DNA from: Telopea speciosissima
Lineage: Eukaryota > Streptophyta > Magnoliopsida > Proteales > Proteaceae
Reading direction: 5' to 3'
DNA: 64,000 nucleotides
Assembly (NCBI RefSeq): GCF_018873765.1
Contig: NC_057919.1
Coordinates: 65,962,984-66,026,983 of the forward strand
Part shown: piece after piece, positions 16,584 through 63,603 of the stretch
How positions within the stretch are numbered: position 1 is the first letter of the stretch
How the letters are laid out: each line of letters begins with the position of its first letter
Made by a program: the position numbers and the translations under genes
Notes under the pieces: model-generated
What the model saw: only the letters and a program-made list of their open reading frames with translations
Database searches by the model: none
What the model was told of the DNA's origin: nothing

Positions 16584-40450
<23,867 letters not shown>

Positions 40451-41126: not shown

Positions 41127-42400
41127 CGCACAGGAGCGGTACCAGCGCATCCAACAGCTGGGCTGCCATGATGCGTATGCCAGCACACATCCTGATGCAC
41201 ACTGCCATAGGATTATTATCCTCTCCAATTCCCTGTAGCTCGGCAGTGCGGCTGTTATACCCGCACCCAAACTACACCTTAATTCTTCGGACCACGTTGA
41301 ACCTTAATTCAACGGTCAACACCTATGACTTTGGGTCGTGACAGTCAACAAGATAACTAGAATTAAAAGGTAGAATTTCGATGTGATGGGTGATGTGACT
41401 GCGTGAAGGTGAGCATGTAATCCTTAAATATCATGTGTACGTGCTCCCTTTGTAACCCTCAAAAGGTGGGCCAAAGTCTGGAATTTATTACCTTGGGTTT
41501 ACCCTATTTCTGGTGGATTGGACCCTGAATTGGATCCGGTGGTGAATCCACACCTACCATATTATTTATTGTGGATAAGGTATTATGGGCCGCATCATCT
41601 CCTTTTGTATTTTAGTGTGGGGTCTTCAAATATCTTAGGGATCCACTAGAGATAAATAAGGGTTTAAGAATTATGTGGATTAATTCAACTATCCATTTAC
41701 CTATTACAAATATCTTAGGGACCCACTAAAGACAAATAAGCTTTTTGGGGTTTGTGGATTAATCTTATCTATCCATTCACTAAGCCATGTGTTAATCCAT
41801 CTATCCACTCACAAAACCACTATGCACCCACTAACTAGCTACTAATTCTTCTAACCTAACAAAACCGTGGAGGTGAGGAGAGAAAGGAAAAGAAAGGAAA
41901 AAGAGAAAGCAAAGAAGAAAGAAGAAAGGAAGAAAAAAGAACCCTAGGGCTTGTGTAGCTCTACCCTAGGAGTGTTTGTCTTGGCTGAGGTAGGTCCTTA
42001 AATCTCTCCCTCTCTCTCTCTCTTCTTTATTTCTTTTGGGTTTGGGAAATAACCATTCAATTGGGGGTTTTTGACATAGGGTTTCATTTGCAACCCAATG
42101 ATGCTTTTGGATTTGGTATCATACCTTCTTGGGGGCTTTAAGCTCACCTCTAAGACCTCTCTTTACCTTCTATTGGGATCTATTTCTTGGTTCTAGGGTT
42201 CTTGATGGAGAAACCTTAGTTTTGAATCATTTGGTTTGATTTACTCTTTGAACCCAACAATCCCTTGATTAGGTTAGGGTATTATGACCCTTGGTGGTTT
42301 AAAGACCCTTCCCCCAAGTCCTTGCGAACTAAAACCCGAGTGAAATCGGGTTTGGGAGCTCAAACCTTGGGATTTTTGGATTCAGCAAAGGGTGGATCCA

Positions 42401-42620
42401 GACCAGAGTCCGCTCTGTGAGTCCGCATGCTTGCTAGTTCACACTGGACCCAGGAGTGGAGCTAGACCAGAGTTCGCTCTGTGAGTCCGTATGCTTGCTG
42501 GTTCGCGCTGGACCCATGAGTGGACCCAGACCAGAGTTCGCCCCGTAAGTCCGCATGCTTGCTGGTTCATGCTGGACCCAGTGGTGGACTCAGACCAGAA
42601 TCCACCCCAGAGTCCAGTCT
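42401..42620 (+). repeat. 64-bp tandem repeat within the solo LTR
   Basis: The unit starting GACCAGAGT(C/T)CGC(T/C)C repeats at 42401, 42465, 42529 and, partially, 42593, a regular 64-bp period with moderate divergence. Confidence 0.85.
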
Positions 42621-43012
42621 TGGATTTTAGAGTATTTTGCCCGGGGTGGACCCAGGCACTGTGCCTCCACTCAAAAGTCCACCTAAACTCTATTGTGTTA
42701 CCTTTAAGCCTAGACTTCGAGACCCCTCTTACCTCCTAACTCACTTTGTTACACTTCTTTAGGCACCATTACTCTTACGGTGAGGCTTATCATAAGTTGA
42801 TCAACGATGAACCCTAATAAACGAATTCGCGAACTAATAGGTGAGTGGGGTTGGGATTTGACTTAATTTGGGAGTGTTTTGCATTATGTTATGCTTGTAT
42901 GTCATTTCTCATGCATACTCATTCTTGTATTTTTATAACTATATTTGTGGAAATTACGAATGTATGCATTATGGATGTGGCTTGTTAATATTTTCATCAT
43001 GCTTATAATTGG

Positions 43013-43216
43013 TCTGTTATGCGCCGTGTCGTGCTGGTACCCGGTACACGATGGTATGGGACGTCATGTGCCGTAATACCTCTCGTTACGATAGTATCAT
43101 ATTGCATCATACAGTTAGTACTATTATATGGTCTGTCATGCGCCGTGTTGTGCTGGTACCCGGTACAAGATGGTATGGGACGTCATGTGCCAGAATACCT
43201 CTCGACACGATAGTTT
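43013..43216 (+). repeat. 119-bp tandem repeat (two copies) within the solo LTR
   Basis: TCTGT(T/C)ATGCGCCGTGT(C/T)GT starts at 43013 and 43132. The copies are over 90% alike up to ATACCTCTCG(A/T)(C/T)ACGATAGT. Confidence 0.85.
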
Positions 43217-44689
43217 ATATAGAATGATTAGGATTTTCGATCCCCTTGCTACGACCCTTACCAACAGTGGTTTAGGTGTTGGGTAACCAAAGCTACCTGT
43301 GGTGCCTGAGGAGTGATACGAGGCCAGGTCAGGTGAGATCATTGGTTATCGGGGTTTGCCTCTGGGTGGCGAGTGGCTTCTACCGACGCGAGCTCCCTTG
43401 TAACAATTGAGGCTTTATCGACGGTGATAAGATAAGTGATCCGTGATGTTTCCCGAGTTGTTGCAGTAGCAAGTACCTAGTGACTTAGATATGCTTGCTA
43501 GGTGGATAACTGTTTAATAATTCATGCATAATGGACTATATGTTATTGCTTGTATGTTCCCCATCCCCTCACTAGGCTTAGTGGAGCTTATCCCTCTTTG
43601 CACAACCTTTTTAGTTGCATTGTAGGTGATGTTTTGGTGGAAATCTATGTGGCTCTTTTTCTTGGATATGTATTGCTCGGTGTTGCTGACGTGCAATCGG
43701 TGATTTATATCTATGATATTGATAAGATGTTGATGACTGTGTCAATGGGGTACTTGGATCGAGATACTTATTTCTTTATTCCTTTTTAGTTTCATCAATT
43801 GTATGGTATAAACTCTCTAATAATTACTATTTGTTCTTAATTTTAATTAATCTCTTGAGAAAGGATGTAATATATTATTTGTCTATCACATAGACTTTTG
43901 AACGCTTCTATTATTGTAAACGCTTCCTTTCTTTGCATCTACGTTTATTTTTATTGTAAATGTATTTCTTCCCGCACTCTGATGTACATATGAGTTGTAT
44001 TGAGTTGACTATGATTAGCAGTGTGAGGTGACACGTGTCATCCTAATTATACTCTTTTTATTGTATTTTATCCCTTTCTGGGATGGGGGTGTAATAGCGG
44101 CAGTGCTAGTGTGGGTGTCCGACCCTTGGCAGCTCGGACATCCTTGGACATCCAACAGTTTGAGCTCAAAATAATCAATGAGCTTGGACCATTGGATGTC
44201 CAAGCTGCCACGTGTCGAACATCCACACTTACATGGCCTCACTGTCGAGCTACAGAAAATTGGAGAAGATAATTTTTTCACTGCCATAATGCGCATGTTA
44301 GCAAACATCCCGATGCACATCCTGGCAAAGGATTTGGAGTTGTAATACATTCTCTAAAATCAGACGTTTTTTATTGAAATCTTGTGCGGATGGACTAGCC
44401 ACATCAACGGCCATAAAATAGAGACAATTACCAATTGATGCTAAGTACCAAACATGTGGATCATCATATTCTTCTTCAATGTCCATTCGCTCGTGTGGTG
44501 TGATTTGGGTGTAGCTTGACGTATATTGTTCAATTCAATAAAGATCCTGAGGTCTGTAAATGGATTCAAGGTTGTAATTCGTTTTTCAGTCTTGGGAAAG
44601 GATTAACAAGGAGACCACCTCCTCTATGTTCTTTAAGTTGTTGGTACCTCTGGTACACTTGAAATGATTTCATTTTTGCAAGAAAGAAT

Positions 44690-45318
44690 TGGACTCCTAT
44701 GGACGTGATCAAGGCTGCACAACAAGCTTGTCAAGAGTTTCTTTTGAGATGTTTCGCTTGGTCTTCGTCGCCTAAAAACTTTTTTAATCTAAACTATGAT
44801 GCTTCCTCAAGTCTGGAGAAGAGGAATAGTGGGCTGGGATTCCTCATCCGTGGGCACCTTGGACGGTCTCGAGTTGTTGTTTCTGTAGATCGTTCAACTC
44901 GGCTTTCGTTTGTTGTTTTTCTTTGGGGATTGGCTAGAACTACGCTCTAGTAGCAGAAATTATGGCAATTAGACACGCTCTTGTTACTGCCTCAAACATG
45001 GGTTTCTCCTACTTGATCATCGAGAGCGATAATCTGATGGTCATAGATATTCTCTCTCGAAAAGTCAATTCCATACCTTGGAGGATCTCGGCTTTAATCA
45101 ATGATTGCTGGTCACTAGTTCCCTTATTCGCAACAGTTCTTTTCAGACACACTCTCAGAGAAGCAAATAGAGTTGCTGATCATCTTGCCTCCATTGGTGC
45201 AGCCTCTCAATCAAATTGTATCTGGAATGGCTCCCCTCCAAGCTGTATTTCCTTATCTATGTTTGTAGACTCTTCGGGAACTTTGTTCCCTCGTTAATAA
45301 AGTATTTTTACCAAAAAA
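44690..45318 (+). mobile_element. LINE 3' fragment encoding an RNase H domain
   Basis: The frames at 44699-44950 and 44962-45297 together give a plant LINE RNase H domain: NLNYDAS (first Asp), VAEIMAIRHAL (Glu helix), IESDNLMVI and REANRVADHLA (later Asp residues). One frameshift near 44940 separates the halves. It ends in an A-run at 45311-45319. The 5' limit and target duplication are unclear. Confidence 0.75.
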
Positions 45319-55593: not shown

Positions 55594-55834
55594 TTAATTA
55601 TATCCTAAATCAAACTGAAACTTTGATACACTTAAAGTAGCTATACTCACACAGTTACACTTCAGTTGTCGGCCAGTGGGCCTTGTGGGAGGCAGCCAAG
55701 GGAAAACAAAAGTTGGGCCCACTCAACCCTTTAAGTTTTTAAATTTTGGTGGGAGAATGAAAATGCTGGAAGCCTGCGCGCCCTTTAATAACGAAGTCCT
55801 TTCCTATTTAAGAGTTCCAACTTCCAAATCATCC

Positions 55835-55842
55835 TTATAAAT
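55835..55842 (+). promoter_or_regulatory. TATA box of exonuclease-like copy A
   Basis: TTATAAAT stands about 155 bp before the ATG. The surrounding sequence GTTCCAACTTCCAAA...TCCTTATAAAT is conserved at copy B (62747-62754), which supports function. Confidence 0.65.
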
Positions 55843-55995
55843 TCTCTCAATCCTTTCCTTGGAACGTTGAATCACAGATTCACAGAGGAGGGAAAAGGGG
55901 GATTGGACAGAGAAAGAATTTTGAAATTTTTTTTTCCCTTTTACTTCGCTGTGCTGTTCTTCTCCTTCTTCTAAAACCCTAGATTTGATTCAAAT

Positions 55996-56622
55996 ATGAA
56001 CGAAGACAACATCTCCATCCACGAACATGACAATGGGGATATCCATCTCAATCAAGTCTTCACTGTTAACGTATTTGGCAACAGAGTCTACACAATCGTC
56101 ACTCGCCGAGCTTGTGTTGTGAGGAAATGGATTTACAAAATTCGCTACGATCATCGCTTCAGAAGAGATCGGCTTGTGGTAGGTCTCGGTGTTCAATGGC
56201 GTCCAAGCACGAATAATCCAGTTGCTACTCTGCAGTTATGCGTCGGTCGCCAATGTCTCATCTTCCAAATCATACACGCAAATTCCATCCCTCGAATTCT
56301 GAGTAGGTTCCTCTCCGATGATTCTGTCACTTTTGTTGGGGTCTGTAATCATATTGATTCTTATCTGCTGATGAGGGATTGCAAGCTGTCTGTGAATCGT
56401 CTCTTGGAACTTGGTTCGGTGGCCAATGTTAGGGGTGCTTCGATGGAGATGTTAGCGAGTATGATCCTTAATTTTCATGGAATCAAGAAGCCTGAATGGA
56501 TTGGGAGGAGCGCCTGGGACGATTGGTGGCTTACAGAGGATCAGGTTCAGTATGCTTGCGTTGATGCTTATCTTTCCTTTGAGATTGGAAAGGAACTGAA
56601 TGCATGGAGCCATGATCCTTGA
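55996..56622 (+). CDS. 3'-5' exonuclease-like (DEDDy / WRN-exo fold) protein, copy A
   Basis: A single-exon 208-residue protein of the plant RNase H-like 3'-5' exonuclease family related to Werner exonuclease/RNase D. The hydrophobic first strand is VVGLGVQWRP (61-70). In active enzymes this motif carries Asp and Glu (the FDxE type); here those positions read Gly and Gln. The Exo II Asp (D121 in VCNHIDSYLL) and the Exo III Tyr and Asp (Y186 and D190 in YACVDAY) are kept. Loss of two of the four metal-binding acids predicts weak or no nuclease activity, perhaps leaving nucleic-acid or protein binding. As I recall, a clustered set of Arabidopsis relatives also has a VGVGVQW-type motif; this should be checked. 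A conserved TATA box lies upstream. The start ATG and flanks are shared with copy B. Confidence 0.88.
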   Translation: MNEDNISIHEHDNGDIHLNQVFTVNVFGNRVYTIVTRRACVVRKWIYKIRYDHRFRRDRLVVGLGVQWRPSTNNPVATLQLCVGRQCLIFQIIHANSIPRILSRFLSDDSVTFVGVCNHIDSYLLMRDCKLSVNRLLELGSVANVRGASMEMLASMILNFHGIKKPEWIGRSAWDDWWLTEDQVQYACVDAYLSFEIGKELNAWSHDP

Positions 56623-60248: not shown

Positions 60249-60739
60249 CACTTACACTGTCACAGTTGAACCAAACCAAACCAAATCCAAACCAAAAAAC
60301 CCGAAACCAGATTAACACCCTTAACTATACACTTACACTTACACAGTTACACTTCAGTTGTCAGCCAGTAGGCCTTGTGGGAGGCAGGCCCATGCAAAGC
60401 AAAAGTTGGCCCAATTAACCCTTTAAGCTTTGGATTTTAATCCTCTCCATTTTCCCATTTGTTATTTCTTATTATTTCTCCCCTGAAATTGTGACACATG
60501 GCACAAGTAAATCTAACAGCCATAATTCATTCGCTCAATTTTAACTAAGAATTTTGGTGGAGAAAAGAAGGCATGGAAGTAAGCCGCAATTGCGACTGGG
60601 TATGGGGTTGCATGTCCAAGCATTGCAGTCTGTTGGATATGTCCTACACATTGTGTCACGCTACAGAGGAGCCCCACGCGCCACGACTCCCTTATTGTTA
60701 CCATATCAAAAGTCCAGTACAGAATTTTTATAGTTTATA

Positions 60740-62665
60740 GGGCAAATTTCACGGACACCCCCTATAGCTATTCGAAATGGCAAGTACACCTTAAATTTTG
60801 TAAAAATATCACAGATACCCCTTACTTTATGACTTTATTTCAACTTAATCTATTTCTACCGGACTGCACAATTAAGTCACTGTTAACTCTTTTATAATGA
60901 CAAAATTACCTTTACCACATGATGAATTTCCCATAATACCCTTAAGATTAAAACCTCAAATACAAATCATTCTCTTCATCATCTTGCCGTTGGCATTGCC
61001 GCTGACTGCTGCCACTGTCGTTGCCGCTAACCGTTGCCGTTGCGATTGCCGCTGTCGTTGCTGCTGTCGTTGCATCTTCTTCATCTTCTCGTACCCCTTT
61101 TATTTCTTCTCCACACTACTGAACCCACTGACCCACTTTCTCTTCCATTTTGTCTATTTGTTTTTCTGTTTCCTGAAATGCAAAATACCATCGCCGGTCC
61201 CATTTTTTTCTCCAACACCCCATTTAAACCTCTTTTATTTTTTTATCTCTCCCACTCAACCAAGCCCAAATCCAACATCTGAAACCCTTTTCATTTTCTC
61301 TTTGAATGACGGCAGAAGAAGCAAGGACAGGGAAGAGGGCCATGGAATCACCAAAATAGGATAACCACATCCTATAAGAACAAAGAACCTACAGGAAGTG
61401 GGGGAGAAGAAGCCAAAAGATCTATAAAATAAAAAGGCATTAAGGTTGTGAGAATGGCGTCTTCCCCTCTCTCTATCCTTAGTTTAACTATTCTCTCTCT
61501 CGTCCTTCTTCCTCATTTGGGTTCCTCTAAATCTGTCGACTTCAGTTCCCTTCCCTTTAAAGACCATGGGGGCCCTCTTCTCACCGGCAATCTAAAACTC
61601 GCCATTCTTTGGTACGGCAAATTCGGCCTTGGCCATAAACAAACCATCACCACCTTCGTTAAATCTCTTAACAGTGTTGCCGTCTCCACTAAACCAAGTG
61701 TCGCCACATGGTGGCGTACCATTGAGAGTTATCAACCTGCACCTAAAGTGGTGTAATCCCTAAAAATAATGTTTAGATTGTGAAGAAGATAACCGACAGG
61801 AATTACTCCATCGGCAAAATCATAACTCAAGACTTCATTGAGAAACTTGTTCAGCTAGCCACCGGTGGTGACAAGAGCTTGTTGCCTGTAATATTTACGG
61901 CGAAGGATGTCGCAGTCGTGGGATTATGCATGGGCAAGTGCTCGGAACACGGCACGGTAGGTGCCGGAAAGTTATCCCAATCGTACATTATTGTTGGGAA
62001 TCCGGAAATCAAGTGCCCTGACACATGCGCATGGCCATTCCATGCCGCTGCTCAGGGTCCGAAGATGATGCCATTGCCACCACCGAGTGGGAATGTTGGT
62101 GCGGATTCACTGGTTCTTGGTTTTGCCACCGCCTTGGCCGGTGTAGTGACCAATCCCTACAATACAGGCTACTTCCTTGGCCATTTCCTCTGTTCTCACT
62201 TTCCCTTACTTCCACCCGCTACATTTTTGGATCCAAAACGAAGTAAGATCCTATACAACAACAAAATGGAAGCTGATTTGGTAGCTCAGAAGTTATTTTG
62301 TAGATGAGTTGATGCAAGTAATTGTCGCCAGAGAAGAAATCGCCGGAGTTACTTGTCGACAGTTGGAGTTGGAGCAATGATGGCGGCCTACGGTGGTTGT
62401 GCTCTCCTACGGTCCCTCAACGCGCTCTAGTGGGAAGAGAAATGTGGAAGATAATAGATTTCTTAGTAATTTTTAGGAAAATTTTCTAAAAAGGTAAAAT
62501 CGACATTGTCACTTTGGATGGTAACTCTTACTAAGAGGGTAAAATTGTCATTTTATCTTTTGGGATAACCTTGCTTAATTTTAAGGGAAAAGTTGATAGT
62601 TTTGTAAAATTTAAGGTGTACTTGCCATTTCGAATTTTTATAGGGGGTGTCCGTGAAATTTGTCC
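60740..62665 (+). mobile_element. Pack-MULE (1926 bp) carrying an EXORDIUM-like gene fragment
   Basis: Terminal inverted repeats of about 61 bp lie at 60740-60800 and 62605-62665. They start GGGCAAATTTCACGGACACC on the left and, on the opposite strand, GGACAAATTTCACGGACACC on the right, with about 90% identity. Perfect 9-bp direct repeats TAGTTTATA lie at 60731-60739 and 62666-62674, diagnostic of the Mutator superfamily. No transposase is present. Inside are a pyrimidine-rich segment (about 60960-61290), an upstream stretch with a TATA-like CTATAAAATA, and an EXORDIUM/PHI-1-like coding region in the plus orientation. A non-autonomous MULE with captured host gene sequence is a Pack-MULE. It inserted between a duplicated gene and its distal promoter. 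Confidence 0.92.
61454..62307 (+). pseudogene. Captured EXORDIUM/PHI-1-like gene fragment, broken
   Basis: EXORDIUM-like proteins are secreted cell-wall proteins linked to brassinosteroid and sugar-responsive growth. The frame opens at ATG 61454 with a clear signal peptide (about 25 residues, ending near GSSKS). It continues with GPLLTGNLKLAILWYGKF and SVATWWRTIESY, typical of the family. A stop at 61754-61756, a frame change and a second stop (TAG at 61774-61776) interrupt it. The other frame then gives YSIGKIITQDFI, GLCMGKCSEHG, CPDTCAWPFHA and GNVGADSLV up to NPYNTGYF near 62172. Similarity ends there, roughly 65 residues short of the usual C-terminus. The frame runs on as unrelated sequence to TGA at 62307. 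No functional EXO protein is expected. Confidence 0.85.
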
Positions 62666-62746
62666 TAGTTTATAACTTTCAATGTAGTAATTTAATAACC
62701 AAATCAATTTCTATTTTTAAGTTCCAACTTCCAAAATCCAAATCCT

Positions 62747-62754
62747 TATAAATG
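62747..62754 (+). promoter_or_regulatory. TATA box of exonuclease-like copy B
   Basis: TTATAAAT in the same context as at copy A (AGTTCCAACTTCCAAAA...ATCCTTATAAAT). It lies 82 bp downstream of the Pack-MULE end, so everything farther upstream at this gene is transposon sequence. Confidence 0.65.
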
Positions 62755-62982
62755 CTGTCAATCATTGTCTTGGAAAGTTGAACCGCAGTGGACAAACGAA
62801 AGATATTTCACTTTCTTCCATGTCCTCTTTTTCTTTGTCCTGTTTTTCTCTTTGTTTTTCCCCTTTCTTTCTTAAACCCTAGTTTTTACAAAGACAGATA
62901 TTTCTGTCTGTCTCTTTTTTCGAAATACTTTTTCTTCTTTGTCCTGTTTTTTCTCTTTCTTAACCTTAGTTTTGATTCGGAA

Positions 62983-63603
62983 ATGAACGAAGACAACATT
63001 TCTATTGAAGAACTCGACAATGGGGATACCCTTCGAACCTCCACTGTTAACGTATTTGGCAACGAGGTATTCACCTTCGTCACTGGACGAGCAGCTGTGG
63101 TGAGGAGATGGATCTATAAGATCCGTTACGAACATCGGTTCAAAAGGGACAAGCTAGTGGTAGGACTTGGAGTTCAATGGAGGCCAAGCATGGCCAATCC
63201 AGTTGCTGTTCTACAGTTCTGCGTCGGTGGCCGTTGCCTCATTTTCCAGATCTTACACGCAAATTCCATCCCGCGAATCCTTAAGAGATTTCTCGCGGAT
63301 GATTCTACCACTTTTGTGGGGGTCAATAATTACAACGATTCTTATCTTCTGATGAGGGATTACGGTTTGTCTGTGAATCGTATCTTTGAACTTGGATCGG
63401 TGTCCAGGATTAGGAGAGCTTCGATGGAGACGTTGGCGAGAAGAATCCTTGGTTTCAATGGAATCAGGAAGCCTCAGTGGATTGGTAGGAGTGATTGGGA
63501 CGATTGGTGGCTTACAGAGGATCAGGTACAATATGCTTGTGTCGATGCATATCTTTCCTTTAGGATTGGAAAGAAACTGAAAGCATGGAACCACGATCGT
63601 TGA
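62983..63603 (+). CDS. 3'-5' exonuclease-like (DEDDy / WRN-exo fold) protein, copy B
   Basis: A single-exon 206-residue tandem paralogue of the protein at 55996. The first motif again reads VVGLGVQWRP, without the Asp and Glu of active enzymes. Exo II is VNNYNDSYLL and Exo III is YACVDAYLSF, both retained. The two proteins align end to end, with two residues fewer here near the N-terminus (LDNGDTLRTSTVNVF versus HDNGDIHLNQVFTVNVF). The frame is open upstream of the ATG, but that part is a pyrimidine-rich leader with a ~100-bp direct repeat (CTTTGTCCTGTTTTT... near 62835 and 62937), so I start at MNEDN as in copy A. The proximal promoter is kept; the distal one was displaced by the Pack-MULE. 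Confidence 0.88.
   Translation: MNEDNISIEELDNGDTLRTSTVNVFGNEVFTFVTGRAAVVRRWIYKIRYEHRFKRDKLVVGLGVQWRPSMANPVAVLQFCVGGRCLIFQILHANSIPRILKRFLADDSTTFVGVNNYNDSYLLMRDYGLSVNRIFELGSVSRIRRASMETLARRILGFNGIRKPQWIGRSDWDDWWLTEDQVQYACVDAYLSFRIGKKLKAWNHDR

Follow-up and report, generated by a model that had tools for sequence, protein, structure and literature searches.

The question raised by this locus was whether a 1926-bp stretch (60740-62665) in a 64,000-nucleotide window of the Telopea speciosissima genome, the window being the whole stretch of DNA analysed, is a Mutator-like element (MULE) carrying a captured gene piece, that is, a Pack-MULE, and from where and by which route that piece could have been acquired. 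A sequence-only reading had proposed terminal inverted repeats of about 61 bp, a perfect 9-bp target duplication and an EXORDIUM-like (EXO) cargo. The ends of the element were mapped as follows:

60731..60739: left target site duplication, 9 bp, TAGTTTATA
60740..60811, plus strand: left terminal inverted repeat, 72 bp
62594..62665, minus strand: right terminal inverted repeat, 72 bp
62666..62674: right target site duplication, 9 bp, TAGTTTATA

The inverted repeats were found to be real but slightly longer than proposed, with 65/72 positions identical between left and right (BLAST E 6.7e-22 within the window), and the duplication stood as described, TAGTTTATA being exact and immediately outside both ends. 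When random intervals of element length were sampled, an exact 9-bp match at the same offsets occurred in 4 of 200,000, and in 41 of 200,000 when the offsets were allowed to vary by up to 2 bases; the former figure is slightly weakened because the TAGTTTATA word is over-represented in the window (5 occurrences vs 0.77 expected). Among the seven inverted pairs listed in a survey of the window, the ends of the element had the second-lowest E-value and formed one of the two pairs with a direct flank duplication. A longer degenerate inverted repeat was also looked for at the element (13 of 500 shuffles). The left terminal repeat matched at all 40 places scored in the host genome, out of 278 candidates, and a search of the literature with the terminal-repeat letters returned one unrelated paper. 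The inverted repeats of Pack-MULEs are typically 100–500 bp in the available text of a published account (PMC3310237), and the shorter 72-bp repeats count against the Pack-MULE explanation.

Some other features were noted separately. A possible second MULE-like element lies at 41210-44278; its inverted ends are imperfect and 38 bp long, and it is flanked by a direct 10-bp repeat, CACTGCCATA, which was found after 17 x 17 end offsets had been tried. Remains resembling a non-LTR retroelement, with zf-RVT and DUF4283 domains, are present on the minus strand at 24754-30080, an RVT_3 piece at 44938-45294, and, at 37016-37541 and 39043-39480, the two diverged arms of a long inverted repeat that align over 527 columns at 68% identity. 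Outside the host, one viral contig (L001, 1448-1480) contains an exact 20-mer of the terminal repeat, the sole such match among viral contigs. This contig reads like a tailed phage, its match to the element extends over 33 bp at 88%, and no inverted partner was present in the 6,761 of its 32,810 bases examined; the 20-mer was treated as a coincidence.

The cargo between the ends was characterised by its reading frames and by comparison with the Pfam family PF04674 (Phi_1), and the following features were assigned:

61340..62182, plus strand: captured EXO segment, 843 bp, 94% identical to an intact gene on contig C11
61454..61753, plus strand: first cargo reading frame, Phi_1 positions 2-63 of 276, ending at a TAA at 61754-61756
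61774..61776, plus strand: in-frame stop after the frame change
61777..62182, plus strand: second cargo reading frame, Phi_1 positions 78-213 of 276

Both pieces of the cargo matched the EXORDIUM/PHI-1 family (E 1.8e-17 and 7.8e-44) and represent the family core, so the family identity proposed for the cargo, as part of a cell-growth gene, holds. An intact gene is not present: the frame changes near 61748, the stop follows, the C-terminus of the family is missing, and the full Phi_1 domain is absent from any one frame. The cargo is thus a broken gene copy, truncated, frame-shifted and carrying a stop, which sets it apart from the family, and it probably yields no EXO protein. Searches with the second cargo piece gave 50 pattern-matching stretches and no relative among prokaryote genome contigs, and nothing convincing among solved structures (best E 0.24). 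Within a limited literature collection, no paper pairing “Pack-MULE” with “EXORDIUM” was found, nor one that combined three or more of four EXO and transposon terms.

The stretch C11:3493925-3494766, on a contig other than that of the element, aligns with 61340-62182 of the window; the 841 aligned bases contain 51 substitutions, and the alignment has 3 gap columns. The stretch belongs to an intact relative of the cargo, a gene that is open over 308 codons and covers the whole Phi_1 profile (1-276 of 276). The captured segment begins 112 bp upstream of the ATG of this gene and includes 730 of its 924 coding bases; the two are collinear at the frame break, which rules out an intron there. The gene copy on C11 has no intron, likewise 29 of the 39 EXORDIUM genes of cotton in the part of that survey available (PMC8481617). 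Neither an end or body of the element family nor a second EXO gene was present in the 67.5 kb around it. A search of the 823-Mb host genome with the whole element returned one full copy, which is the window's own, one EXO-only locus and many loci with ends and bodies only (at least 130 matches overall, as 40 candidates were scored out of 1426). When only the EXO segment was used, the three candidates, all scored, were the window copy, the C11 gene and a match on C8 of 86% over 129 bp only. Thus, one EXO-bearing copy of the element was found in the host genome, and the parental gene lacking the inverted repeats that the earlier reading had called for was recovered. The C11 gene is the donor or a close relative of the donor.

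The possibility that the cargo still has a function, by encoding a short secreted peptide or by giving rise to small RNAs that target the donor gene, was considered. The first frame is open for 100 codons with a hydrophobic start, judged by eye to be a putative signal peptide, and the 94% identity to the donor would suit such a role. A TATA-like motif at 61423, 31 nt before the ATG, is the only TATAWA on the plus strand between 60700 and 62700; TATAAA occurs at 1.6 per kb over the two strands of the window. The motif had been read as the cargo's own TATA-like sequence: it is present, but it is absent from the donor locus on C11, and there is no support for a working gene driven by a TATA element of its own. 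Together with the frame change, the stop and the lost C-terminus, this would make a functional cargo very improbable. In the coding part, cargo and donor are separated by 20 synonymous and 23 non-synonymous changes and by 1 stop, and the synonymous share (20/43) exceeds the 25% expected without selection (p 0.002). Such an excess would also fit past constraint on the cargo. In our reading of a broken copy, it means that some of the changes accumulated under constraint, whether in the donor itself or in a close relative of it from which the piece was later captured; no such relative was found among the three candidates of the EXO-segment genome search.

What stood in the element before the EXO piece was examined in 18 sister loci (L011-L028) fetched from the host genome, of which 16 had both parts of the junction, L023 and L026 being left out of this count. 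Comparison with the sisters defined the following parts of the window copy:

60740..61345: left family body, element positions 1-606, 82–94% identical to the sisters
61340..61345: left junction microhomology CCATGG, 6 bp, common to the donor and the element family
62183..62665: right family body, element positions 1444-1926, shared with the sisters

All 16 sisters hold 506–587 bp of family interior in place of EXO, and it is for this reason that the EXO piece is said to have replaced the interior of the element. CCATGG is exact in 12 of the 16, and no microhomology between donor and family was seen at the right junction. The suggestion that 60960-61290 and 62175-62600 came from other loci, making the element a multi-source chimera, failed at this step: 60960-61290 (with TTGCCG-type repeats at 60984-61073, inside the left family body) and 62183-62600 are shared family sequence, and no second captured gene is present in the window copy, both sides of the cargo being family sequence. 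Both ends are present in 14 sister loci; six have an exact 9-bp duplication lying precisely at the ends (a run of T in one case), and eight do not.

The sisters showed some variation of their own. Two subtypes were seen among L011-L028, one with an extra piece of 449 bp on the left and the other with an extra 304 bp on the right; the window copy has neither, and trees in which it would be a mosaic of the two were weakly supported (0.75 and 0.77). In L012, open frames of the family body at 1036-1790 resemble a gene piece by eye and are possibly an old capture; the seven ORFs scanned in this sister had no Pfam match. In L023, a nested Copia-like retroelement, recognised by eye from its frames, accounts for a length of 7.6 kb.

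Elements with the same ends and other cargo were looked for using the ends alone, with facing pairs picked by eye, and three were obtained (L059, L060 and L061) that were absent from the whole-element search. They share 205–247 bp on the left and about 134–139 bp on the right with the element at 78–84%, and their insides differ. L059 (G000:C2:62666094-62667528) carries a DnaJ piece (E 1.7e-11) and L060 (G000:C8:52129550-52131495) a PADRE piece (E 1.2e-13), whereas L061 combines the same ends with an interior different from that of the EXO element. The 9-bp flank duplications are exact in L060 and L061 and match at 8/9 positions in L059. Pieces of no fewer than three genes (EXO, DnaJ and PADRE) are therefore found between the ends of this family, and the sister elements sought by the earlier reading exist. 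A Pack-MULE with a captured EXORDIUM-like sequence is strongly supported by the parental gene without repeats and the sisters with different insides. Taken together, the element is almost certainly a real Pack-MULE that had its interior replaced by the 843-bp EXORDIUM-like piece from another contig and has since decayed. As far as the consulted portions of two reports on rice and tomato Pack-MULEs go (PMC3310237, PMC8903248), it resembles these in being non-autonomous, in its inverted repeats and 9-bp duplication, in carrying a gene fragment whose donor lies elsewhere and in having sisters with other cargo.

The claim that the element has no transposase was borne out, as none of its 35 ORFs with a length of 35 aa or more (2 of them slightly trimmed) matched a transposase in Pfam; Phi_1 was the sole match above cut-off, and four other weak matches were far below theirs. 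The host genome has at least 150 places with a MULE domain (150 of 827 candidates scored), and no autonomous partner with the element's ends was found among 20 of them taken with about 1.5 kb of flank, in which respect the element differs from the rice and tomato Pack-MULEs as covered by the available text of PMC3310237 and PMC8903248. The only end match among those 20 places, a single 43-bp match at L050, has no inverted partner and faces away from the FAR1-like transposase gene of that locus. L058, in which a MULE-domain gene lies close to one repeat-like stretch, was rejected, as was the 7.6-kb sister L023, the extra length of which carries the separate Copia-like frames.

These features may be brought together in a mechanism. 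The starting element was Mutator-like and non-autonomous, belonged to a family that is present many times in this plant genome, and had its interior (about 510–590 bp in the sisters) swapped for the 843-bp EXORDIUM-like gene piece. The EXO piece was most likely copied by template switching during break repair, begun at the shared CCATGG, and the element, lying upstream of an exonuclease-like gene, has decayed since. We infer the movement of the element in trans by a MULE transposase, the repair-type copying of the EXO piece, and the order of EXO capture and element insertion. The retained ends, replaced interior, one-sided microhomology, unlinked donor and single copy all fit template switching in gap repair. 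Counting against the overall explanation are the short 72-bp repeats, the failure to find an autonomous partner in the 20 places taken with about 1.5 kb of flank, the right junction without microhomology, the synonymous excess between cargo and donor, and the eight sister loci lacking an exact duplication at their ends.

An EXO-free MULE could have inserted at this site and had its interior replaced later in gap repair, in which case the target duplication dates the insertion and not the capture. We give this order an even chance: a single EXO-bearing copy was found, the interior was replaced with both ends and bodies retained, and the 6-bp microhomology lies at one breakpoint, as in most animal single-copy Pack-TIRs in the available part of a report that supports capture in place by gap filling in animals (PMC8277862). 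The element shares with those cases its one copy, changed interior, kept ends and one-breakpoint microhomology; it differs in its plant host, in the replacement of most of the interior and in its unlinked donor, and the last of these speaks against this order, since animal donors are mostly close by (within 15 kb in 56.9% of 281). That gap repair at the insertion site, with template switching to an unlinked gene, would be the plant counterpart of the animal transposition-independent route is a tentative proposal to which we give slightly less than an even chance. Acquisition of EXO at another site, followed by movement of the finished Pack-MULE to this one, is possible though somewhat doubtful. 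Capture first and movement afterwards is the usual reading of Pack-MULEs and favours this order, as do the same-end elements with other cargo, which carry their own duplications. It would also be helped by joint movement of neighbouring insertions, proposed for other superfamilies from hAT, PIF, Mariner and CACTA cases in the accessible part of PMC8903248. On the other side, no further EXO-bearing copy appeared among the three genome candidates, and the lack of family sequence within 67.5 kb of the donor argues against joint movement of donor-flanking insertions. On gene acquisition by Pack-MULEs, PMC8903248 and PMC8277862, as far as their available text goes, favour different routes.

The age of the element was assessed from its divergence. 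The Jukes-Cantor distance between cargo and donor is 0.063. In its family parts, the window copy has 38 private substitutions in 1083 sites (3.5%), the highest of 13 copies (0.9–2.5% in 12 sisters), a count that depends on the sisters sampled and leaves out the more diverged L016 and L024. The left and right repeats differ at 7 positions in the element, at 1–12 of 72 in 13 sister loci and at 37 in L024. The perfect duplication is no sign of youth, as 9-bp duplications stay exact in 39% of cases at 10% divergence and in 13% at 20%. Nothing marks the window copy as young, and its description as young-looking is contradicted.

The element sits in front of one member of a tandem pair of exonuclease-like genes, whose divergence from each other is Ks 0.57 and Ka 0.16 across 212 codons; the features of the insertion site are as follows:

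55975..56622, plus strand: tandem exonuclease-like paralogue, PF01612, no element upstream
60334..60431: distal upstream block, 87% identical to 55642-55739 at the paralogue
62691..62788: proximal upstream block, 80% identical to 55784-55877 at the paralogue
62983..63603, plus strand: 3'-5' exonuclease-like gene (PF01612) downstream of the element, with its ATG 309 bp beyond the right duplication

Upstream of the paralogue, counterparts of the two blocks that flank the element are present and the element is missing; distal and proximal blocks are 44 bp apart there vs 2259 bp at the element-bearing gene. This region does not represent an exact empty site, because the exact target site and some flank (at least 57 bp on the left and 15 bp on the right) are also missing from it. 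At the distal block, the similarity exceeds that of synonymous sites with a p of 7e-9, a value that is too small since BLAST chose the block for its similarity. A 114-bp upstream stretch at 60432-60545, separate from the element, is also missing from the paralogue. The element may affect expression of the downstream exonuclease-like gene. A similar arrangement is OsMULE, upstream of rice PsbS1 by about 0.4 kb, with repeats of about 80 bp and a 9-bp duplication; the available part of that report (PMC4178011) names no gene capture, and expression was tested for OsMULE only.

The EXO Pack-MULE is unusually well documented and is otherwise ordinary for Pack-MULEs, and it leaves the general understanding of these elements unchanged. 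Because it separates two shared upstream blocks of one tandem gene, an effect on expression would be measurable against the sister gene. With donor, replaced interior and breakpoints all visible, related genomes could decide whether the capture came before or after the insertion.
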